From contig PHBC01000002.1 of the NCBI GenBank assembly GCA_002840505.1, positions 62,001 to 126,000 of the forward strand: DNA of 64,000 nucleotides, in the 5' to 3' direction. The notes under the pieces were generated by a model. That model was not told where the DNA came from. It saw nothing but the letters and a program-made list of their open reading frames with translations, and ran no database searches. Position numbers and translations under genes: made by a program. The stretch is from Deltaproteobacteria bacterium HGW-Deltaproteobacteria-2. Lineage in GTDB: Bacteria > Desulfobacterota > Syntrophia > Syntrophales > Smithellaceae. Shown here piece by piece: positions 43,419-56,367 of this stretch; the stretch's first letter is position 1, and each line of letters opens with the position of its first letter.

Positions 43419-45314
43419 TTAATGGTGACCGTGCTTGGCTTTGGATTTTACTTCCTTGTATTCTTCGCGCAGGGCGATATGATCCATATCGTCCATATCT
43501 TCAGCTCGTTTCACCCAGTCTTCAAATTGAATATCCACACCAAAAATACCCTTCATCTCATCTTGATCGTTAACGATGGGCGCGGAAACCGTGAAGCATA
43601 AAATACCCGTCATCTTGGAAATAAAGAAATCGGAAACATAAACTTTGCCCGTCTGCCGGGGATTGATGAACCATTCCCTGTCGGATTGATCGGTGCCCAC
43701 TCCATAGTTCTCATACTTGGCTCGATCGGCAATGTTAGTAATATTTTTGGTCGTTTTCCGGCCATTCATATCCACTACGTAAGCGAATTGAATGGAAGGA
43801 TGTTCATCGACAAAATATTGCATCAGCATTTCCTGCTGTACGGTATCCATGTTCTTCATTAAAGGATGTTCGATAATTTGATTGACCACGGAAACAGCCG
43901 CTTTTTCTGCTATAAATTTTATCTTTTCCAGTCCCGACATAAAGTGTTCCGGCAGATGCAGACGTACTTTTTTTTCCATTTCTTCTGGAGAAATGGAAGT
44001 TACCCTACCGGCTTCATATTGTTCTGTCACCCACTTGTGAATTTTAGAAATTGCCGGATGTCTTTTATCGATGGTTTTGCTGCCTTCGAGACTGAAACGC
44101 TGATTAATCCAGAAAGCGATACCGGCATTGCCGGATTTATCGGTGATAGTTGTGGTAATGGGTCGCTTTAAAATCTTTCGGGTATCAAATATGTTATAAA
44201 TTTCTTCGCATTTAATGAGACCGTCGGCATGGACCCCTGCGCTTGTGACATTGAATCCCAGGCCTACAAAAGGATAGTTGTGTGGAATTTTTACGCCGAT
44301 TTCTTTTTCAAAATATTCGGCGATATCTGTTATGACTGTTGTATCAATACCATTGTTTCCCTTAAGCGCGATGTATTCAAAAATCAAACCTTCGATAGGC
44401 GGGTTTCCTGTTCTTTCGCCCAGTCCCAGAAGGGTAGAATTAGCCGCACTGCAACCGTGAAGCCAGGCCGTTGTGGCATTAATCATGGCTTTATGAAAAT
44501 CATTATGACCATGCCATTCCAGCAGACGTCCGGGAACGCCGGCATCATTGATAAAGGCGTGAACGAGTTTATCAACGCTGCGGGGAAGGGCAGCGCCTGG
44601 ATAAGTAACGCCGTAGCCCATAGTGTCGCAAAGCCTGATTCTTACGTCAATGCCGCTTTCCTCCCTGAGCTTCATCAGTTCCTGGGCGAACGGAATGCAA
44701 AAACCATAGACGTCTGCGCGGGTGATATCTTCAAAATGGCAGCGGGGAATTATGCCTAAATCCAAAACGGATTTGACCACACTAAGGTAATCGTTCATGG
44801 CCTGGCCTCTTTTCTTGTTCAGCTTAAGAAAAATATGATAATCGGAGACGGAAGTAAGCAGGCCTGTTTCTTTCAACCCTAATTCCTTTACTAAGGGAAC
44901 ATCTTCCTTCGCGGCTCGTATCCATCCGGTTATTTCCGGATAGCGCAGGCCCAGCGCCTGACATTTTTCCACGGCCTCTTTATCTTTTTTACTATAAAGA
45001 AAAAATTCCGATTGACGTATTACACCTTTGGGACCACCCAGTTTACTCATTAACTCATATATCGTTACAATTTGTTCCGCTGTATAAGGAGGGCGGGATT
45101 GTTGTCCATCACGAAAAGTCGTATCCGTTATAAAAATTTCTTTGGCCGGATTCAGGGGAACAGTTTTGTTATCGAAGACAATCTTGCTTACATCGGTATA
45201 AGGAAAGATTTCTTTGAATAAATTTGGTTTGTCTACCTCTTTTAACTTAAATTTCTTGATTTTTTTGGTAGTCAATTTTTTTTCACTCTTGGGTTTAACC
45301 ATCTTTTTCTCCAA
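43419..45314 (-). CDS. Re-citrate synthase-like enzyme (DRE-TIM metallolyase) fused to a Cache/PDC-like domain
   Basis: A 631-residue protein. Residues ~55-410 are an HMGL-type TIM barrel related to isopropylmalate/homocitrate synthases: FITDTTFRDGQQSRPPYTAE (61-80), RCHFEDITRAD, EWHGHNDFHKA (267-275, metal ligands) and GLGERTGNPP. The whole (for example PKGVIRQSEFFLYSKKDKEA) resembles the Re-citrate synthase of Clostridium kluyveri and of Syntrophus, which makes citrate from oxaloacetate and acetyl-CoA. Residues ~485-600 look like a Cache/PDC ligand-sensing fold (QFAYVVDMNGRKTT, SDREWFINPRQTGKVYVSDF, FTVSAPIVNDQDEMKGIFGV). No membrane helix is present. The end is His-rich (KHGHH). A GGAG site precedes the ATG. 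Confidence 0.82.
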   Translation of the reverse strand: MEKKMVKPKSEKKLTTKKIKKFKLKEVDKPNLFKEIFPYTDVSKIVFDNKTVPLNPAKEIFITDTTFRDGQQSRPPYTAEQIVTIYELMSKLGGPKGVIRQSEFFLYSKKDKEAVEKCQALGLRYPEITGWIRAAKEDVPLVKELGLKETGLLTSVSDYHIFLKLNKKRGQAMNDYLSVVKSVLDLGIIPRCHFEDITRADVYGFCIPFAQELMKLREESGIDVRIRLCDTMGYGVTYPGAALPRSVDKLVHAFINDAGVPGRLLEWHGHNDFHKAMINATTAWLHGCSAANSTLLGLGERTGNPPIEGLIFEYIALKGNNGIDTTVITDIAEYFEKEIGVKIPHNYPFVGLGFNVTSAGVHADGLIKCEEIYNIFDTRKILKRPITTTITDKSGNAGIAFWINQRFSLEGSKTIDKRHPAISKIHKWVTEQYEAGRVTSISPEEMEKKVRLHLPEHFMSGLEKIKFIAEKAAVSVVNQIIEHPLMKNMDTVQQEMLMQYFVDEHPSIQFAYVVDMNGRKTTKNITNIADRAKYENYGVGTDQSDREWFINPRQTGKVYVSDFFISKMTGILCFTVSAPIVNDQDEMKGIFGVDIQFEDWVKRAEDMDDMDHIALREEYKEVKSKAKHGHH

Positions 45315-45324
45315 TTATTTACTA

Positions 45325-47094
45325 TTAAACAATTTTCAGAGATAACTCCATCAATTGCTCGATGCTGACTTTAGAAGGAGCATCGGTCATCAAACAGGCT
45401 GCTTTCTGCGTTTTCGGGAAGGCGATAACATCTCGTATTGATTCCGCTTTGGTCATAATCATAGTTAGCCTATCCAGACCGAAGGCCAGTCCTCCATGGG
45501 GCGGAGCTCCATACTCGAGGGCATCCAGCAAAAACCCGAATTTCTGCCTTGCATCTTCTTCACTCAATTTAAGCGCACTGAAGACCTGAGACTGAACGTC
45601 CTTATGATGAATACGAATACTACCGCCGCCGATTTCCGATCCGTTAAGTACCAGATCATAGGCTTTGGCGCGTACTTTTCCCGGATCTGTAGTCATTAGA
45701 GGCAGATCTTCAAGAAACGGCGACGTGAAAGGGTGATGTGTAGAGACAAAACGTTTTTCCGTTTCCGAATATTCCATCAATGGGAATTCCGTAATCCAGG
45801 TAAAGGCCAATGCGTCTGAATCAATCAAGTTAAGTTTCCTGGCCAGATGTATTCGTAAGTTGCCCAGCGAGTCATTAACGACACGCGAAGTATCGGCGAC
45901 AAAGAAGATAATATCGCTTTCTTTAGTGTTCATTGCTTTGCCGATGCTCTCCACTTCCTCCGGTTTAAAGAATTTATAAATGGGTGAAGTCCAGTCGGTA
46001 GCGTTGACTTTGGCCCATGCCAGACCCTTCGCTCCATAAATGGCTACAAAATCTTTCAATCCGTCTAGATCCTTGCGGGAAAGAGCGGAAGCCTGTTCGG
46101 CTTTAATCGCTTTGATTACGCCACCGGAAGCCGCAACTTCCGCGAAAAGTTTAAACCCTGAATCTTTGACAATATTGGTAATATCCACGATTTCCATACC
46201 GAAACGCACATCGGGATTGTCTTTGCCGTAGCGGCTGATCGCATCGGCGTAGGTCAACCTGGGGAGGGGGAGGGTTAGCTCCTTACCCAGGCAGGCTTTA
46301 AAGATGGCTTTCATCAGACCTTCCATCATACTCATAATATCTTCTTCAGTAATGAAAGACATTTCCACGTCGATTTGAGTAAATTCCGGTTGACGATCGG
46401 CGCGCAAATCCTCATCGCGGAAACATTTAACGATTTGATAATAACGGTCAAAACCGGAGACCATTAAAAGTTGTTTGAATAGCTGCGGTGATTGCGGCAG
46501 CGCATAGAATGTGCCTTTGTTAATACGGCTGGGCACAAGATAATCGCGTGCGCCTTCCGGTGTGCTTTTACCCAGAAAAGGTGTTTCAACTTCAATGAAA
46601 CCGTTTTCATCAAAATAGCGACGGGTAGCGGCGGCCAGACGACTGCGTAAAAAAAGGTTCTTTTGAATCACCGGACGTCGCAAATCAAGATAGCGGTATT
46701 TAAGGCGGATGTTTTCCGAAATGTCCTCATCGTCAAAAGAGAAGGGCGGAGTTTTGGATTCATTCATTATCTCCAGATCGGAGACAATAACCTCAATTCC
46801 GCCGGTTTTCAAATCCGGATTTTCCATGCCCTCAGGCCTTCTGCGAACTTTGCCTTTTACGGCAAGAACAAATTCAGAACGAATTTTATGCGCTTCGCTG
46901 TGGGCATTTCCGGCCTCAGGGTTGAAAACAACCTGTACTATTCCTTCACGATCGCGTAAATCAACAAAAATAACTCCACCGTGATCACGGCGGCGGTGCA
47001 CCCAGCCCATCAGAATTACTTCCTGTCCGGCATGAGAAATATCCAGATTTCCGCAGTAATGCGTCCTTTTATCTTTTGTTAAAAAATCAGCCAA
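45325..47094 (-). CDS. aspS: Aspartyl-tRNA synthetase
   Basis: A 589-residue bacterial-type AspRS that charges tRNA-Asp (or also tRNA-Asn if non-discriminating). An N-terminal OB anticodon domain ([20 protein letters not shown]) is followed by class II motifs: motif 2 [20 protein letters not shown] and motif 3 GLAFGLDRL. The bacterial GAD insertion (about 290-420) is present. It lies 6 bases after hisS and 10 before the Re-citrate synthase gene on the same strand. Confidence 0.97.
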
Positions 47095-47099
47095 AACTT

Positions 47100-48362
47100 T
47101 TACCTCTCTTTAATAATTTTAATTATTGAATCCAGCATTCCATCCAGAGGAACTGCCTGTTGATCTTTTGTCTGCATGTTTCTTAATAAAACTTGTTTTT
47201 TATCAATTTCCTTATCACCGAAAATAAGAGAAAAGGAACTGTTTAATTTGTCCGCTCGCTTTAGTTGACTCTTCAGGCTCTTGTCAGAATAATCCATTTC
47301 TGCAATCACTCCGGCGCGTCTCAGTTCATTGGTCAGGTTGAAAGCTATTTTCTGTGCTTTTGGACCCAGTGCAGCAATGAATAAATCAGTTTTAAATTTA
47401 ATACTTCCTTCTTCAGGCAGGCAGGCTATAAGTCTTTCAAATCCGACGGCAAAACCAATTCCGGGAACTTCGGGCCCTCCCAGATCACTAACCAGGCTAT
47501 TGTATCTACCTCCGCCGGCAACCGCGTTTTGCGCGCCCAGTGCGTTTGTTTTAACTTCAAATGCTGTCTTTGTATAGTAATCCAGCCCACGCACCATACG
47601 GGCGTTAATAATAAAAGGAGTATTCAAATCGTGAAGAAATGATTGCACCTGTGAAAAATGATTTTCACAGTCCGTACATAAAAAATCAAGTATCCGGGGC
47701 GCGTTGGCAATAGTCGCGGCACATGTTTCCACTTTACAATCGAAAACGCGCAAGGGATTGGTGTTTATGCGTCTTTGGCAGTCGGGGCAGAGATCGTTTT
47801 CGCTTCCTTTTAAAAAATTAATGACAGCTTTGGAAAATAAAGGGCGACAATCAGGGCAGCCTAGAGAATTAATTTCCAATTCCAGATTTCTCAATCCCGT
47901 GCTTGTTAAGAAATGCATCAGCATAAAAATTATTTCAGCGTCCGATTGAGGTTTTTCTTCGCCGAAAAATTCGACATCAATCTGATTAAATTGGCGGAAG
48001 CGTCCTTTTTGAGGTCTTTCGCGGCGGAACATCGGACCGATCGTAAAAAGTTTGGTTATTTGTTCGGAAGAGGACATATTGTGTTCAATATAGGCGCGGA
48101 TAACAGAAGCGGTAGCTTCCGGTCTTAGGGTTATATTTTCGTTGTCCCGGTCGGCGAAGGTGTACATTTCCTTTTCAACGATATCGGTTGTTTCTCCAAT
48201 GCTTCGTTTAAAAAGGTCTGTTTTTTCGACAATTGGAACGCGGATTTCCCGATAGCCGAACGAATTGAAAACCTCATGGGCTATAGACTCAACCTTCCAG
48301 AAGAGAAGAGAGTCTTCAGGTAGAATGTCTTTAAATCCTCGAATTGCTGTAATTTTTTCCAT
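47100..48362 (-). CDS. hisS: Histidyl-tRNA synthetase
   Basis: A 420-residue class II synthetase. It starts with the typical [12 protein letters not shown]; motif 2 is [20 protein letters not shown]; the His-specific signature is [14 protein letters not shown]; the [12 protein letters not shown] and [13 protein letters not shown] segments follow; the C-terminal anticodon domain is present. The central CPDCR ... CPDCQ and CTDCE clusters are those of the Cys-rich insertion seen in many bacterial HisRS. It is first in the hisS-aspS run. Confidence 0.97.
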
Positions 48363-48770: not shown

Positions 48771-50525
48771 TTAACTAAAGGCAAAGTTTTTTTCTAGAAA
48801 TAATTTCAGGCAGGCATCCACAACATTGTCATCATAAAGGGTGCCTTTGTTCTTGGAAATCTCATCCAGTGCAAAGTTTATTCCCAGTGAAGGACGGTAT
48901 GGGCGGTGGGAAGAAATGGCCTCTACGACATCGGCAACAGCCAGAATACGCGCCTCCAGAAGAATGGAGTCTCCCTGAAGGTGATTTGGATAACCTGATC
49001 CGTTCATTCTTTCATGATGTTGAAGAACGGCATCGGCTACCGGCCAGGGGAAATCGATATCTTTCAGAATATTATATCCGGCAGGGGAGTGAGTTTTAAT
49101 TAAGTTGAATTCCACTTCGGTAAGCTTTGTGGGTTTGCTGAGAAGCTCCGATGGAACTGATACTTTGCCGAGGTCGTGGATGATGGATGCGGTGTAAATG
49201 AAATCCTGCTGATCGGATGTTAAACCCATTTCCCGGGAAATTGCCACAGCCAGTTGAGCAACTCGCTGTTGATGGCCGGATGTATAAGGATCTTTCGTTT
49301 CTACAAGCAGCGCGATCGATTGTACAGTAGCCTGCAATGTTTTCTTAATGCGGTTATAACCTTCAATGCGTTCTTCCTCCAACAATTTACGCTCAGTGAT
49401 GTCATTCAAAAAATTCAAGGTAGCCGGTTTTTTGTTCCATTCAATGACAGTGGCATTCAGTTCTGCCCATTTTATTTTTCCATCATGAGTAATAATTCTG
49501 AAAGAATATATAGAGGGGACGTTCTCTCCTTTCAATCTTTTTGTGCTGTACTCGGTCACGATATTGCGATCTTCGGGATGGATAAAGTTCGTAAAAGACC
49601 CGGATGTTAGAGTTTCTTTGGAATAACCTATTTGTTCGGCGGCGGCGTTATTGGCAAACACGACGTTCGTATCTCGTGTGATGATGATGGCTTCATGGGC
49701 ATTTTCCACAACAATACGATACCTCTCCTCGCTTTCCAGCAGATTATTTTCGGCCTGCTTGCGTTCGGTAATATCGGAATAGAGCGCCTGAAAAAGTAAC
49801 TCACCATTCCAAAGCACCTGTTTGCGAAATACTTCCAGATAGCGTATTTCGCCATCCTTACGGATGATGCTCAGTTCATAATACGGAATGATTTCGCCGC
49901 GCCGTCTTCTTTCTTCTCTTTTTTCGTGTTCGATATAACACTCCGGAGTGTATCTTTTTTTGTGGGGAATGGTAGAAAATTCTTCAATGCTGTCAAAACC
50001 ATAAATCTTTAAAACTTCCTGATTGGCGTAAAGAGTTTTGCCATCTGCGGATACAATGCGAATGCCTAAAGGTGAATTATCGAGGGAATGACGGAAATTT
50101 TCTTCACTTTTTTTCAGCATTTCATCTGCGGTTTTCTTTTCTTGTCTTATTTTGGCTTCGCGGATTTCTCTCTCTATTGCGACTACGAGCTTGGCAAGTT
50201 TGTCTTTCATCAGGAAATCGTGTGCGCCTGATTTCATTGCCGCCACTGCCGTATCTTCTCCGATAGCGCCGGACACAATAATGAAAGGAATATCGATTTT
50301 TATGTCTTGCAAAACTTTGAGGGCGGCGGGTGCGCTGAAACGCGGCATTTTATAATCGCAGAGAATAACATCCCACTGTTTGCTCTCAAGAGCTGCTTTC
50401 ATGGTTTCGGCAGTCTCCACTCTTTCCCATTTCGGATCATATCCTCCATTGCGCAACTGACGTATTATCAACTTGGCATCATCATCCGAATCGTCGACGA
50501 TTAGAACACGGAGAAAAATATTCAT
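48771..50525 (-). CDS. Response regulator: receiver, two PAS domains, HD-GYP phosphodiesterase
   Basis: A 584-residue protein. Receiver 1-125 with Asp57 (CDYKMP); PAS 1 about 140-258 and PAS 2 about 262-380, each ending in DITERK; a linker helix; HD-GYP domain 395-584 with His450-Asp451 (HDLGK), HHERMNGSGYP (GYP 511-513) and the usual CDSFDAM-like AVADVVEAI segment. HD-GYP proteins hydrolyse c-di-GMP. The motif usually reads HHExxDGxGYP; here the D is N, with uncertain effect. Third gene of an operon with a giant kinase and a receiver protein. Confidence 0.92.
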   Translation of the reverse strand: MNIFLRVLIVDDSDDDAKLIIRQLRNGGYDPKWERVETAETMKAALESKQWDVILCDYKMPRFSAPAALKVLQDIKIDIPFIIVSGAIGEDTAVAAMKSGAHDFLMKDKLAKLVVAIEREIREAKIRQEKKTADEMLKKSEENFRHSLDNSPLGIRIVSADGKTLYANQEVLKIYGFDSIEEFSTIPHKKRYTPECYIEHEKREERRRRGEIIPYYELSIIRKDGEIRYLEVFRKQVLWNGELLFQALYSDITERKQAENNLLESEERYRIVVENAHEAIIITRDTNVVFANNAAAEQIGYSKETLTSGSFTNFIHPEDRNIVTEYSTKRLKGENVPSIYSFRIITHDGKIKWAELNATVIEWNKKPATLNFLNDITERKLLEEERIEGYNRIKKTLQATVQSIALLVETKDPYTSGHQQRVAQLAVAISREMGLTSDQQDFIYTASIIHDLGKVSVPSELLSKPTKLTEVEFNLIKTHSPAGYNILKDIDFPWPVADAVLQHHERMNGSGYPNHLQGDSILLEARILAVADVVEAISSHRPYRPSLGINFALDEISKNKGTLYDDNVVDACLKLFLEKNFAFS

Positions 50526-50543: not shown

Positions 50544-50987
50544 TTATAACAAATTCGGACCTTCGTTTATAAGAAGCCAGTAAAGTCCCAGTTGTTTTAC
50601 CATTTCCATGAACTGACTGAAGTCAACGGGTTTGCGTATATAGCTGTTGCACCCAAGCTTGTAGCAGATGAGAAGATCGCCCGGCTCCTTTGAAGATGTC
50701 AGTATTACCACGGGAATCAGTTTTGTTCTTTCATCGGCTTTCAGCTTTTTCAATACTTCAATACCATTTATTTTCGGTAGTTTCAAGTCAAGCAAAATTA
50801 AAACGGGCAGATCGTTTTTCTGATCATTGACAGCGCCTTCTTTACCGAAGAAGAAATCCAGAGCTTCCGCTCCATCGCGCTTAACAATGATCTTATTTAT
50901 AATATTATTTTTTTTAAATGCGCGCAGAGTTAACTCAACATCATCTGGGTTATCTTCCACCAGTAATATCTTCTTGTCGTTTGACAT
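50544..50987 (-). CDS. Single-domain response regulator (Rcp1/CheY-like)
   Basis: A 147-residue receiver from the ATG at 50987, where an AGAGG site fits; the upstream open frame to 51014 overlaps the kinase gene. It starts KKILLVEDNPDDVELTLRAF, has the phospho-acceptor in LILLDLKLPKINGIE and Lys in RKPVDFSQF. The NPDD and long alpha1-beta2 region (AEALDFFFGKEG-type) are typical of Rcp1-like partners of phytochrome-type kinases. It lies between the giant kinase and the HD-GYP regulator and probably relays phosphate. Confidence 0.9.
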   Translation of the reverse strand: MSNDKKILLVEDNPDDVELTLRAFKKNNIINKIIVKRDGAEALDFFFGKEGAVNDQKNDLPVLILLDLKLPKINGIEVLKKLKADERTKLIPVVILTSSKEPGDLLICYKLGCNSYIRKPVDFSQFMEMVKQLGLYWLLINEGPNLL

Positions 50988-51003
50988 GGGGCACCTCTTA
51001 ATT

Positions 51004-54000
51004 TTATTTCTCATTAAGACTGAAATAGAAAGTTGCGCCTTTGTCTATTTCTCCTTCCGCCCAAACCTTGCCTCCGTGGCGGTTGATAATGCGCCGCACG
51101 GTGGCCAATCCAATTCCAGTCCCGGGAAATTCATCATCAGCGTGCAGGCGTTGGAAAGGGGCAAATAGTTTGTCTGCGTAAGCCATATCGAAACCGGCTC
51201 CGTTATCGCGGATGAAATATACTTTTCCTCCACCTTCCGCCTTCAATAATCCGAATTCTATTTTAGCTTTTGTCTGCCTTTCTGTGAATTTCCAGGCGTT
51301 GCTAAGCAAGTTGTCAAGGACGATGCGCATTAATCTCAAATCTGCAGTGTCTTCCAGAGAGTCAGCAATACTTATCTCAACATGCCTTTGGGGTTGAGAC
51401 TTTTGCAACTCACTCATTACTGACCGGGCAATCACAGTAAGATTGATTTTTTCAATGTTCATTTCCATTCGTGTAATACGGGAAAGCTGCAGCATATCTT
51501 CTATAAGATCCGCCATCCTTCTTGTGGCTGTCTTTATTCTTGTCAAATAATCCTTGCCTTGTATATCCAGTTTATCACAGTAGTCTTCAAGAAGCGCCTG
51601 ACTGAAACCCTCAATTGACCTGAGGGGGGCGCGCAGGTCGTGAGAGGCTGAATAGGAAAACGCTTCCAGTTCCTTATTGGATGCTTCGAGTTTAATCGTC
51701 CGTTCACGCACCAGTTCTTCCAAATGCTCACGGTATTTTTCAAGTTCTTTTTCAGCTTTCATTCGTTCGGTAATGTCAATACCAACTCCAAGAAGATAAT
51801 TATTGTTGGCGATGGTTAGTTTTACTCCGGTAAAAATCATGGGAATTGCCCGTCCATCCTTGGTTATAAGACGTCCCTCTGCTGTAGCGTGACCATTGTT
51901 CATAACATCGGCTATGCCTTTTTTAATAGATGATGTATCAGGCTCTATGTCACCAAACCAGTCCAGTATATATCTCCCATTAATTTCGTCGCCGGAATAA
52001 CCGGTTAATTCTTCATGTTGTTTGTTCCAGTGCACTAAATGACCGGCGTTGTCATAGAGATAAAGAATGCCGGGAACGCTTTCGAGTATGGCCTTGTTAA
52101 GAACTATAGATCTTTTCAACTCTTCTTCAGCTTTTTTGCGTTCAGTTACGTCAACCAGGATACCTGATGAACCGTCAAACTTGCCCTCCGCTGTTAAAAT
52201 AGGCTCGTGGTAGGCTTCGAAAAAGCGATCCCCTACACTGACAAGAGCAGTGAACGCTTCTCCTTGCAGCGCTCGACGGAAATGTTCTTGATCATCGGGA
52301 TGATCGCGATACACATCAAACACGGACCGGCCTACGACCTCGCCGCCCTTCAATCCCATAGTCGAAAGTGCTTTTCCTTCAGACAGAATGAAGATGCCAT
52401 GCTTGTCGACGGCAAATATTACTACCGGAGCATTGCTGACCATGGTTTGGAGGCGAACAAATTCTTTTTGAAGAGCATCCTCAGCTTTCTTGCGTTCGGT
52501 TATATCTTCCAGTGTTTCTACCGAACCGATAATGTTACCATGAGCATCTCTAATCAGTGCCGCACCGAAGAAAAGCCACTTTCCTTCTTTACCCATGATT
52601 GGAAAAAAACCTTCTGCTTCGTAAGCTCCCTCCGAGTAATTGGACTCGTTACAGTTTCCTTTATATAATTCAGGGATGAGATTTATTTGTTGATCAACCA
52701 GCAGATCGGCAAGACATGGACGCTCGTTATGATAAAAAGCTTGCCAATGCTTGTTAGTTCCTAATATGTCGGCCGATTTGATTCCGGATATTTCTTCCAG
52801 AGCTTTGTTCCAGTAAAGTATTTTGTGATTTTGATCTATTACGAACTGTGGAACAGGAGAGCCTTGGATTACCGCCTTTAATTTTGTTTCGCTGTCCCGC
52901 AATGCTGCTTCCATACGCTTGCGATCGGTGATGTCTCTCTCCACAACCACGATCCCGTTTGCTTTACCATTTGCGTCCACTATCAGATTTCCAGTTGCTT
53001 CAATGAAAACTCTGCGCCCACTCTTGGTAATGACAGTGAACTCGGTGACATTAACACCACTGCCCATCAGTAACTCTTGCATTGTTGAAGTAACCCTTTC
53101 TTTATCTTCTGGCGCGACATAATCCAGGGCGCTTACCCCAAGATCTTCTGTCTCAAACAGTTTCTTTGCGGCTTCGTTTGCGCTTATAACCTTTCCCTCC
53201 AGATCAACGATCAGAATGGGGTCTAGGGCTAGCTTGAGAGCGTTGGAAAGTACGGCTATTTCCGCTTCAGCCTGCTTGCGTTCGGTGATATCAATTAATG
53301 TACTGAGCATTCCAATGATGTTCCCCTGAGAATCTGTGAGAGGTCTGGAATTATTTAGTACAGTAATGATACTGCCGTCTTTGCGCCGGAGTTTGTGTTC
53401 GTAGTTGATGAGGCGCCCGCCGTCAAAAAGTTCCTGATGAGCCGGCAAAACGTTAACAGGGTCATCATCCACATCCGGAATGCTCATTCTCATCAGCTCT
53501 TCTTTAGAATAACCGAGGAGGTCCAGGCCGGCCTGGTTGGAATCTATGAAGTTCTTTTTTGTATCAAATATATAAATTGCTGTAATTGATTCATCAAAGA
53601 TTCCCCGGTATTTCTCTTCGCTTGCCCGTAATGCTTCCTCTGCCTGCTTCATTTCGGTGATATCGCGTATAATAGTCAGAAAAGCAGGTTTATCCTTCCA
53701 CTCGATAAGCCTGCTTCTCAGGTCAACCAATGAAATAGAACCATCCGCCCGAATGGCCCGATAAATATAGCCTTCGGGAGATCGCATACCTTTTAGCCTT
53801 TGTTGGAGTCTTTGTGCGGCGATTTCTCGATCGTCGGGATGAATGAAATCAAGAGGTTTCATGCCAATTGTTTTTTCAACAGGATAACCACTTATAACGG
53901 AAAAGGCATAATTAGCTTCAATTATGCTGGATGGATCATTGATTGTTATACCATCAATACTTTGTTCAAAAAGAGAGCGGAAGTCTTCTTCGGAACGTTT

Positions 54001-56367
54001 TAGTGCTTCCTCCGCAAGTTTACGTTCGGTGATATCCGTATGAATTCCGATAAGACCGATAATTTTTCCGGCCTCGTCCTTTATCGCATCCGCGCGAATT
54101 TGAACGGGAAATTTGCGCCCGCTTTTTGATATCATTGTGATCTCGCCTTGCCATGAATTCCCGCTCATGATTGATTCAAAAACTTCAGATGCGGTATCTT
54201 TATTGGCAAAAGCTGCCGGTCCGCCGCCTGCGGCTTCGAGTTCTTCGGCAGTCGCGTATTCAAATAAATCAGAGAATGCTTTGTTTTGATAAAAGTGGTG
54301 ACCCTGTGGATCGGAAACGCCGATGGCATCGCTGGAATCTTCTACAGCCTTTTTGATAAGAAAAAGTTCTTCTTCAGCCTTCTTGCGTTCGGTAATGTCT
54401 GTATTGAAACCATGCCAGATTATACTGCCATCAGGCAGTTTTTCGGGTGTGGAAGTGCCCAATAGCCATCTGAGCGGCTTGCCGGGAACTTGAACCCTGT
54501 ATTCACATTGCCAGGAAGTCATGTTCTTTGCTGAACATTTTATGGATTGAATGAACCTGTCAGTATCTTCATTGTGTATAACTTTTAGTATAGGCGAAAA
54601 ATCATTGACGATATCCTCAGGAGCACATCCGTAAATATCTTTGACAGCTTCTGTGGAAAAAGGGATACAAAAAGTTCCATCAGGCTTCATCATGAACTGG
54701 TAAATAATTCCGGGAACATTGGCAGACAACTTCTTGAACACAATGTCACGTTCTTTCAACGCTTCCTCCGCGCGTTTGCGTTCGGTAATATCTCTCGATA
54801 CACCATGGAGACCGGTTAAAATACCCTGCTCATTTCTGATTCCGTTAATGGTATTTTCAAGCCAACGCGTTGAACCGTCTTTATGATAGAATTCCAATAT
54901 TAAAGTTTGGGCTCTCTGAGGATCGGTTTTCCCTTGTTTTTCCAGAGCAAGTTCATCCTCCAGAATTTTCTTGGCGGCGGATAATGAATCAGGTGTCAGT
55001 TGTTCATAAACGGTTTGACGCAATCTTTCTTCCTGAGAAAAACCAAGCACTCTCCGTATGGAGGGGCTCACGTAAGTTGTCCGTAAGTTCAAATCCATAA
55101 TCCAGATGATATCGGAAATTGTTTCGGTGAGAAACTTATATTTTTTTTCACTTTCGCGCAGTTCCTCTTCAGACCTTTTGCGCTGTGTAGTGTCTCTGAA
55201 CATGCCAATCAGACATTCTTTGCCGTCTAAGACAATTGAGGAAGTGTTTACGTCCGTAAAAAACAGAGTCTTGTTTTTTTTCATTAAAGGTATATCGCGG
55301 GCTATCGATATTTCTTTTCTGGAAAGTTTTTCAAATTGATCAATAACGTACGACAGTGATTCTTTAGGATGGATATCGGAAACGTTTAATTTTACAATAT
55401 CTTTTTTAGTATAGCCCAGCATTTTACATATGCTTTTATTGGCGGAAATAAAATTTCTGCTGCCCACCTCTGCTAAAAGAATTCCGTCTGATGCGGAATC
55501 AAATATCGTTCTGAATTTTAATTCTGCTTCTTTTAGGGCGTTTTCAGCCAGCTTTCGCTGGGTGATATCGGTGATGGAACCTGTTAAACCTGCCGGCTGT
55601 CCATCTTTAAAAATTACATTACTTGAACTGACTACGTGGCGTATTTCACCATTCTTGATTTTAATACGATATTCGACTGATTCTTTCTCGCTACTGACCA
55701 GAATTCGATTGATACTGGCCAGCACCTTCGGCAGGTCTTCCGGTATAATATGTTCGGTTATGTTGGTTCCGATTACTCCACTTGTTGAGTATCCGGTTAA
55801 ATGTTCCATGGCCGGGCTTATGTAGGTGATAAAGCCTTGCATATCGACAGAGAAGATAACCTCACTTACATGCTCTACTAATTCGCGGTATTTATTTTCT
55901 GATTCCTGCAGGTTCTGAATTGTACTTTTGTGTTTGGTAATGTCCTGTAATGTATGAATCACACCTTTAATCTTGCCTTTTTTATCCACTATAGGATCAG
56001 CGATGATATTAAACCACCTCTTTCCTTTGCGGATCTCACCATTTTCGCGAGCGAATGATTTTTTCGCCCGTGTAGCCGGACATTTTGAAAATGGTTTGGT
56101 TGTACCATGTACAATTTCCCAACAGTGTTTCCCGATAATTTCTTTCTGTGTCAGACCGAACATTTCTGTCATGACACGGTTGCAGTGCAGAATACGTTGA
56201 TCAGGATCCAAAAAACAGACCGCGTCGGTGACTGCATCAAGAGAGGATTTCCAGAACATCCCCGTTACAGGCTTACTTTTATTGACAATCTTAGATGAAC
56301 GAATTGTTTTAGGTACAGATTTACCCTGTTTTTTTTGTCGGGATATCAGCTTAGGTTTCTTTTTCAT
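51004..56367 (-). CDS. Very large cytoplasmic histidine kinase with about 12 PAS domains
   Basis: A 1787-residue kinase. Counting the DITERK-type PAC ends gives about 12 consecutive PAS/PAC units over residues ~35-1540, joined by short helices. A HisKA domain follows with His1576 in SASHDLRAPL, then HATPase_c with the N box LDNLLSNAWKFT, DNGAGFD and GTGIGLATV. No transmembrane helix or signal peptide is seen, so it is cytoplasmic. The HisKA type (EAFSYSASHDLRAPLRSIEG) goes with Rcp-like receivers, one of which follows at 50544. PAS ligands (haem, flavin, small molecules) are unknown. The PAS units differ, so recent duplication is not obvious. Confidence 0.92.
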   Translation of the reverse strand: MKKKPKLISRQKKQGKSVPKTIRSSKIVNKSKPVTGMFWKSSLDAVTDAVCFLDPDQRILHCNRVMTEMFGLTQKEIIGKHCWEIVHGTTKPFSKCPATRAKKSFARENGEIRKGKRWFNIIADPIVDKKGKIKGVIHTLQDITKHKSTIQNLQESENKYRELVEHVSEVIFSVDMQGFITYISPAMEHLTGYSTSGVIGTNITEHIIPEDLPKVLASINRILVSSEKESVEYRIKIKNGEIRHVVSSSNVIFKDGQPAGLTGSITDITQRKLAENALKEAELKFRTIFDSASDGILLAEVGSRNFISANKSICKMLGYTKKDIVKLNVSDIHPKESLSYVIDQFEKLSRKEISIARDIPLMKKNKTLFFTDVNTSSIVLDGKECLIGMFRDTTQRKRSEEELRESEKKYKFLTETISDIIWIMDLNLRTTYVSPSIRRVLGFSQEERLRQTVYEQLTPDSLSAAKKILEDELALEKQGKTDPQRAQTLILEFYHKDGSTRWLENTINGIRNEQGILTGLHGVSRDITERKRAEEALKERDIVFKKLSANVPGIIYQFMMKPDGTFCIPFSTEAVKDIYGCAPEDIVNDFSPILKVIHNEDTDRFIQSIKCSAKNMTSWQCEYRVQVPGKPLRWLLGTSTPEKLPDGSIIWHGFNTDITERKKAEEELFLIKKAVEDSSDAIGVSDPQGHHFYQNKAFSDLFEYATAEELEAAGGGPAAFANKDTASEVFESIMSGNSWQGEITMISKSGRKFPVQIRADAIKDEAGKIIGLIGIHTDITERKLAEEALKRSEEDFRSLFEQSIDGITINDPSSIIEANYAFSVISGYPVEKTIGMKPLDFIHPDDREIAAQRLQQRLKGMRSPEGYIYRAIRADGSISLVDLRSRLIEWKDKPAFLTIIRDITEMKQAEEALRASEEKYRGIFDESITAIYIFDTKKNFIDSNQAGLDLLGYSKEELMRMSIPDVDDDPVNVLPAHQELFDGGRLINYEHKLRRKDGSIITVLNNSRPLTDSQGNIIGMLSTLIDITERKQAEAEIAVLSNALKLALDPILIVDLEGKVISANEAAKKLFETEDLGVSALDYVAPEDKERVTSTMQELLMGSGVNVTEFTVITKSGRRVFIEATGNLIVDANGKANGIVVVERDITDRKRMEAALRDSETKLKAVIQGSPVPQFVIDQNHKILYWNKALEEISGIKSADILGTNKHWQAFYHNERPCLADLLVDQQINLIPELYKGNCNESNYSEGAYEAEGFFPIMGKEGKWLFFGAALIRDAHGNIIGSVETLEDITERKKAEDALQKEFVRLQTMVSNAPVVIFAVDKHGIFILSEGKALSTMGLKGGEVVGRSVFDVYRDHPDDQEHFRRALQGEAFTALVSVGDRFFEAYHEPILTAEGKFDGSSGILVDVTERKKAEEELKRSIVLNKAILESVPGILYLYDNAGHLVHWNKQHEELTGYSGDEINGRYILDWFGDIEPDTSSIKKGIADVMNNGHATAEGRLITKDGRAIPMIFTGVKLTIANNNYLLGVGIDITERMKAEKELEKYREHLEELVRERTIKLEASNKELEAFSYSASHDLRAPLRSIEGFSQALLEDYCDKLDIQGKDYLTRIKTATRRMADLIEDMLQLSRITRMEMNIEKINLTVIARSVMSELQKSQPQRHVEISIADSLEDTADLRLMRIVLDNLLSNAWKFTERQTKAKIEFGLLKAEGGGKVYFIRDNGAGFDMAYADKLFAPFQRLHADDEFPGTGIGLATVRRIINRHGGKVWAEGEIDKGATFYFSLNEK

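Follow-up and report, generated by a model that had tools for sequence, protein, structure and literature searches.

Locus and gene features

The window, i.e., the whole stretch of 64,000 nucleotides that was analysed (contig PHBC01000002.1 of Deltaproteobacteria bacterium HGW-Deltaproteobacteria-2), carries on its minus strand the gene of a protein in which a DRE-TIM catalytic part is followed by a C-terminal Cache domain; this architecture is called the long form below (Table 1). The reading frame is open from 45314 to 43419 and encodes 631 amino acids from a TTG codon or 627 from the ATG at 45302. The ATG is the likely start of the gene, and residue numbers refer to the 627-residue product. 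The original prediction had placed the gene correctly at 43419-45314; the minus strand is added here. The gene is probably co-transcribed with aspS. The order hisS, aspS, putative Re-citrate synthase gene (window 43419-48362) brings tRNA charging and citrate synthesis together, a puzzling association. Elsewhere in the window, inspection by eye suggested a response regulator with an apparent HD-GYP domain (48771-50525) and a response regulator of 156 amino acids (50544-51014), the latter adjoining a histidine kinase of 1787 amino acids with many apparent PAS repeats (51004-56367, minus strand).

Table 1. Long-form gene, its parts and the neighbouring tRNA synthetase genes (positions in the window)
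Feature	Position	Strand	Remarks
CDS, very probable long-form Re-citrate synthase with C-terminal Cache domain	43419..45302	-	from ATG, 627 aa + stop
N-terminal extension, residues 1-56	45135..45302	-	residues 1-12 of low confidence in the model
PF00682 HMGL-like (DRE-TIM) catalytic barrel, residues 57-329	44316..45134	-	Pfam and alignment
Post-barrel region, residues 330-450	43953..44315	-	invariant N351, T353, A355, G356, H358, D360, G361
Long helix and linker into the Cache domain, residues 457-486	43845..43934	-	model
Cache (PDC) domain, residues 487-600	43503..43844	-	Pfam, fold prediction, structure comparison
R542-E-W544	43671..43679	-	positions of the carboxylate-binding Arg and the aromatic residue in Cache ligand pockets
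D590	43533..43535	-	invariant, 78/78; position of D173 in the amino-acid sensor PctA
C-terminal helix and tail, residues 605-627	43422..43490	-	gapped in most distant relatives
aspS	45325..47094	-	10 bases upstream of the TTG, 22 upstream of the ATG
hisS	47100..48362	-	upstream of aspS

Catalytic part and enzyme identity

A scan of named genomes yielded 586 confirmed stretches, 80 of which (loci L031-L110) were analysed. Alignment A1 contains 67 of these 80 loci. The window protein, nine of the loci L001-L030 and the homologue of genome G084 were added, giving the 78 rows of alignment A2. Copies and near-copies (L031, L032, L033, L040, L045, L046, L053 and L062) were left out, as were L036, in which the frame is broken after 84 residues, and L066, L089, L108 and L110, which are cut short or end in N. 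L097 was kept in the alignment though it runs to the contig end.

The catalytic part of the window protein matches PF00682 (residues 57-329, E 2.4e-26). F63-R64-D65-G66-Q67 and H264-x-H266, which are taken here to be the catalytic motifs of DRE-TIM enzymes, are invariant in the alignment of the window protein with 77 relatives (78/78). The AlphaFold model of the whole protein reached a mean pLDDT of 86.9, and in structure comparison it was matched first by homocitrate synthases and also by LeuA. The best NCBIfam matches are likewise 2-isopropylmalate and homocitrate synthases, all far under their cut-offs, and a Re-citrate synthase model is absent among the 23 NCBIfam models that match the protein up to E 1. 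For want of such a match the gene is easily overlooked. A passage of PMC5606693 reports that citrate synthase was not detected in the genome of Candidatus Smithella cisternae, in which a Re-citrate synthase like the window protein may have been overlooked.

Si-citrate synthase (PF00285) was not found in the source genome, which is 98.4% complete. Besides the window protein, this genome encodes four PF00682 proteins, namely LeuA and citramalate synthase, both above their cut-offs, and two pyruvate carboxylase B-type proteins. An aconitase-family gene adjoins the gene of an NADP isocitrate dehydrogenase, the latter above the NCBIfam cut-off.

Among 149 relatives, the long form and PF00285 occur together in 17 genomes, the long form only in 77, the Si-type only in 44 and neither in 11 (Fisher p 9e-14). 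When a second PF00285 type of about 375 bits is set aside, the counts become 10, 84, 43 and 12 (p 5e-17); both p values are inflated by relatedness, because genus g5 supplies many of the Si-only genomes. Si-citrate synthase was counted at PF00285 scores of at least 300 bits, together with three matches cut by contig ends (G095, G121 and G130), and weaker PF00285 matches in other long-form genomes lie outside this count. In 30 further long-form genomes of unstated completeness (L097 left out), full-length PF00285 was found in six, and one had weaker partial matches only; the same search was positive in 13 of 14 control genomes. Judged from gene content, the long form and Si-citrate synthase appear largely, not absolutely, to exclude each other. 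Endomicrobiaceae (Elusimicrobiota) are described in a passage of PMC11257099 as lacking a canonical citrate synthase and encoding putative Re-type enzymes.

The second PF00285 type has a longer span and co-occurs with the long form in G005, G009, G011, G013, G017, G029, G034 (a partial match) and G036, all from genera g1 and g2. Methylcitrate synthase or an additional citrate synthase are conceivable identities. Two neighbouring genes with partial, mostly C-terminal PF00285 matches were observed in G114, G120, G125, G129, G139, G142 and G148; these pairs are perhaps of the citryl-CoA lyase or ATP-citrate lyase type.

Flanking genes were searched with tblastn in 80 of the 586 loci. Isocitrate dehydrogenase was found in 15 of the 80, aconitase-family genes in 15 and aspS in 37, and 27 had none of these. 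In Desulfovibrio (L106), the long form lies, in this order, with an isocitrate dehydrogenase above the equivalog cut-off and an aconitase-family hydratase; in Syntrophorhabdaceae (L061), with a member of the aconitase/isopropylmalate dehydratase family and an isocitrate dehydrogenase above the equivalog cut-off; and in Omnitrophota (L063), with a member of the isocitrate dehydrogenase family under the cut-offs. A locus of Elusimicrobia (L104) combines, in this order, the long form, a member of the lactate/malate dehydrogenase family, an aconitase above the equivalog cut-off and a member of the isocitrate dehydrogenase family. This run of genes spans L104:3989-9706 and would constitute a compact route from malate to 2-oxoglutarate if the second gene encodes malate dehydrogenase. 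Succinate dehydrogenase/fumarate reductase flavoprotein genes also occur near the long form (L063:314-2029, Omnitrophota; L083:6509-8233, Nitrospirae).

The enzyme of Syntrophus aciditrophicus is treated in a passage of PMC12016533, which cites Kim et al. 2013, as a known and isolated Re-citrate synthase. Genome G084 encodes four PF00682 proteins (LeuA, citramalate synthase, a pyruvate-carboxylase-like protein and a long form), and a PF00285 match was not found in it. As the other three are assigned elsewhere, the long form is by elimination its Re-citrate synthase; it is 72% identical to the window protein over 609 residues, Cache domain included. With G084 taken as strain SB, the characterised S. 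aciditrophicus enzyme is probably a Cache-bearing long form.

The window protein might instead be another acyl-CoA condensing enzyme that carries a Cache domain, such as a homocitrate or citramalate synthase. This is very improbable: the leading NCBIfam matches and the presence of PF00285 in 17 of 94 long-form genomes would fit such an enzyme, but LeuA and citramalate synthase are separately present, operons join the long form to aconitase and isocitrate dehydrogenase families, Si-citrate synthase and the long form largely exclude each other, and the S. aciditrophicus homologue points the same way. Homocitrate or citramalate synthase was rejected as the main reading since other PF00682 proteins fill the LeuA and citramalate synthase roles. 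The window protein is very probably a Re-citrate synthase, as had been proposed for its first ~480 residues, which comprise the PF00682 barrel and the post-barrel part, and it is then the only citrate synthase recognisable in the source genome.

The C-terminal Cache domain

For residues ~485-600 the original prediction had proposed a Cache/PDC pattern, quoting the peptides VVDMNGRKTT, SDREWFI and TGKVYVSDF, all of which are present in the protein. Profile HMMs and structure prediction were both applied to the C-terminal part, and both recovered the Cache similarity. In Pfam, residues 515-595 match PF22673 (MCP-like_PDC_1) with E 2.5e-11 and 44.4 bits, above the cut-off of 27, and PF02743 (dCache_1) matches with 36.3 bits, under its cut-off of 45. 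Both models are matched at E <= 0.01 by all 78 sequences of the alignment, and YkuI_C by 24 of them. The window protein gives the only PF22673 match in the source genome. It contains a single Cache module (residues 487-600), and the alignment to dCache_1 covers positions 42-153 of the 240 in that model.

The isolated domain was predicted at a mean pLDDT of 91.5. Its Foldseek matches include KinD (E 2.6e-8), Tlp3 (1.1e-6), YkuI (1.1e-5) and PctC (3.3e-5), and VIA-align gave Z scores of 12.7 to 16.4 among the 50 matches listed, with further families possible outside those 50. A C-terminal profile built from the 78 sequences matched the solved structures of Tlp3 (E 2.7e-11), KinD, PctA, PctC, PctB, Mlp24 and YkuI. 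The long N-terminal helix and PAS-like sheet of the Cache fold are seen in the model and in structure comparison.

A membrane helix had been predicted to be absent, and this holds. The highest 19-residue mean hydropathy is 1.65 (residues 559-577), and since this stretch is modelled as a loop and a beta-strand within the Cache domain, a good membrane helix was not found by hydropathy and model. A value of 1.6 is attained by 8 of the 78 relatives. At a threshold of 1.9, two hydrophobic segments were present in all ten aligned receptor controls and none in five long-form proteins. Extracytoplasmic placement between two membrane helices, which is usual for Cache domains without defining them, is thus lacking in the window protein, and a signalling output domain was not found in it with Pfam. 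A membrane receptor was rejected on the missing helix and on the long-form controls, which lack the segments seen in receptors.

In the alignment the Cache domain comes after the post-barrel region, which agrees with the predicted placement at the site where LeuA enzymes carry their regulatory domain. The C-terminal module of 2-isopropylmalate, homocitrate and citramalate synthases is LeuA_dimer or RAM/ACT-like. Neither LeuA_dimer nor an ACT-like C-terminal domain was found in the window protein with Pfam up to E 1, and both were rejected as identities of its C-terminal part.

Distribution and short forms

The long-form records placed in the trees carry ten phylum labels: Thermodesulfobacteriota, Nitrospirota, Spirochaetota, Lentisphaerota, Fibrobacterota, Armatimonadota, Elusimicrobiota, Omnitrophota, Margulisiibacteriota and Auribacterota. 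The label Myxococcota, borne by some records titled Deltaproteobacteria, is outside this count. In Elusimicrobia, the phylum of L104, 8 of 16 sampled genomes contain a member. Since it is so widespread and the Cache domain occurs in 78 of 78 sequences, the Cache-bearing protein is a usual long form of this enzyme, present in many phyla, and not an odd fusion. A one-off fusion or an assembly artefact was rejected because all aligned sequences share the architecture. The predicted fusion of enzyme and sensor domain is thus real, while the picture of an unusual arrangement in one organism was not borne out.

Members at E <= 1e-30 were found in 33 of 198 Spirochaetota genomes and 25 of 151 Armatimonadota genomes. 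Many of them end after about 445-495 residues and have no Cache domain. In 29 such short forms the catalytic part is 49-63% identical to that of the window protein, and a Cache reading frame was not found in their flanks, of which 89 to 1530 bases downstream were covered. Genomes G195 and G231 encode one long and one short form each. The Re-citrate synthase of Clostridium kluyveri is presumably of short-form length; not every short form need be a citrate synthase. Given these putative short Re-citrate synthases, the Cache domain is probably not the ordinary domain of all such enzymes; since relatives do without it, it is an added module.

In a tree of the catalytic part (44 long and 24 short forms), at least four switches between long and short are needed. 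The branches with the best support require at least two for the short label and one for the long, so that one gain followed by losses is compatible with the tree. Placement of all long forms on one side of a branch was rejected at a borderline level in an AU test (p = 0.0456, with a long outgroup branch). L160, which stood beside a long form in the first tree, was left out of the second (the locus ends 176 bases after the stop). Proteins without the domain occupy at least two tree branches, from which the domain would be dispensable in some lineages. Estimates of dN/dS were 0.02-0.08 where computable, with synonymous changes above 1 or not computable.

Ligand pocket

Among the 78 sequences, R542 is kept in 73, W544 in 78, F/Y545 in 77, Y/F560 in 76 and D590 in 78. 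Counted as R542, W544, F545, S562, L568, T571 and D590, the positions are kept in 73 to 78 sequences, and the mean column identity of the domain is 52%. The amino-acid sensor motif is given in passages of PMC10104139 and PMC11245519 as Y121, R126, W128, Y129, Y144 and D173 (PctA numbering), with R126 bonding the carboxyl group of the ligand (PMC10104139). At these six positions the window protein has T, R, W, F, F and D, i.e., five of six if F is allowed at Y129 and Y144. The position of Y121, T in the window protein, is Y in only 10 of 78 sequences. The complete motif, absent from the window protein, likewise occurs in 10 of 78 (L071, L086, L087, L092, L098, L099, L101, L103, L105 and L106). 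Nearly all of these are Desulfovibrio-type, and judged by the motif they are the most suitable proteins for a ligand test. The window domain departs from dCache_1AA in its incomplete motif and in having one Cache module instead of two.

Receptors of the same phylum served as a control. Of 30 loci, 15 had no alignable Cache match, leaving 10 receptors and five long-form enzymes; as only alignable receptors remained, those compared are the ones most like the window domain. In all ten, W, F/Y, Y and D as well as Y121 are present, and R stands at the R126 position in one. Therefore only Arg542 discriminates. The aromatic and Asp positions would say only that the pocket is intact, and Arg542 is the sign that points to a carboxylate ligand. 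Membership in the amino-acid sensor family is weakened, as four of the five matching motif residues are common to the aligned receptors.

Proposed control of citrate formation

The reading preferred here, and regarded as probable, is that the only recognisable citrate synthase of the organism, a Re-type DRE-TIM enzyme, carries a Cache module that would bind a carboxylate and directly alter catalysis. The domain would be an added cytoplasmic ligand-binding module at the place of the LeuA regulatory domain, joined through the long helix to the barrel and post-barrel region. A small carboxylate would bind in the pocket around Arg542, Trp544 and Asp590, and its binding would alter catalysis directly. 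The original prediction had likewise proposed direct small-molecule control of citrate formation, by an acid or amino acid; it is supported in part, as the conserved pocket would fit a carboxylate. Such anaerobes use citrate mainly to supply glutamate. The most likely form of control would be feedback by a product formed downstream of citrate, such as 2-oxoglutarate, glutamate or another acidic metabolite. Control by a carboxylate metabolite is favoured because Arg542 discriminates and points to a carboxylate, and an end product of the pathway, either an amino acid or 2-oxoglutarate, would be the first ligand candidate.

A purely structural Cache domain, which would act as a degenerate sensor domain without a ligand and serve oligomerisation or stability, is unlikely. 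In its favour, LeuA-type C-terminal domains take part in dimerisation too, there are relatives that lack the domain, and 68 of 78 sequences have a residue other than Tyr at the Y121 position. Set against this are the retention of the pocket residues, well above the mean identity of the domain, and the conserved pocket Arg, which would be unexpected in a purely structural module. If a ligand is bound, it could also be a product or substrate (citrate, oxaloacetate or pyruvate) in place of a pathway end product. Both single-sequence search and Foldseek give KinD, whose structure was determined with pyruvate, as the closest solved relative, and the fold also resembles CitA with bound citrate and DctB with bound succinate or malonate; a ligand cannot be read from similarity of fold, however, and KinD carries Phe and Ala at the positions of the invariant Trp and Asp of the long forms. 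Sensing of a product or substrate is thus held to be unlikely.

Feedback by an end product could extend beyond the window protein. It is conceivable, if doubtful, that throughout a large and old branch of the Re-citrate synthases a cytoplasmic Cache domain gates the first step towards citrate and glutamate by binding an amino acid or another acidic end product, with the complete amino-acid sensor motif kept in the Desulfovibrio-type forms. In that case a receptor sensor domain would have been recruited as the allosteric domain of a central metabolic enzyme, in parallel to the LeuA and ACT/RAM domains of sister enzymes. Were a metabolite bound, a point at which sulfate reducers and syntrophs control their glutamate supply would be directly testable with the soluble enzyme, and ligand motifs of receptors would be transferable to metabolism.

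In the open-licence literature, searched by titles and the beginnings of abstracts, no description was found of a Cache domain on a citrate synthase or on a cytoplasmic allosteric metabolic enzyme. The enzyme is already known; within that literature its Cache-type regulatory architecture was not found described, although the paper on the S. aciditrophicus enzyme may note it.

Comparison with known systems

The window protein shows no substantial difference in sequence from the S. aciditrophicus Re-citrate synthase, if G084 is strain SB. DVU0398 is taken to be a Desulfovibrio Re-citrate synthase. The short Re-citrate-synthase-like proteins of Spirochaetota and Armatimonadota resemble the window protein in the catalytic part, and only the window protein has the Cache domain. 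2-Isopropylmalate, homocitrate and citramalate synthases share with it the DRE-TIM barrel, the post-barrel region and a C-terminal module at the same place; LeuA of the same genome aligns with it at 25% identity.

In membrane receptors, Cache domains belong to the extracytoplasmic region and mostly comprise two modules. KinD, Tlp3, PctA/PctC and Mlp24/Mlp37 have the fold and most pocket positions in common with the window domain; their Cache domains are carried on membrane receptors, whereas that of the window protein is a single soluble module on an enzyme. Passages of PMC4822843 present Cache domains as dominant among the extracellular sensors of prokaryotes and place them, one exception apart, in signal transduction proteins; the small families Diacid_rec and YkuI_C are described there as mainly intracellular. 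Against this usual extracellular sensor role, the domain stands here, under ten phylum labels, on the enzyme that very probably opens citrate synthesis. YkuI of Bacillus subtilis (EAL domain and YkuI_C) has, according to a passage of PMC4822843, an intracellular Cache-superfamily domain, as does the window protein, and its structures (PDB 2bas/2w27) match the fold of the window domain. YkuI is a c-di-GMP signalling protein, whereas the window protein is very probably an enzyme of central metabolism.
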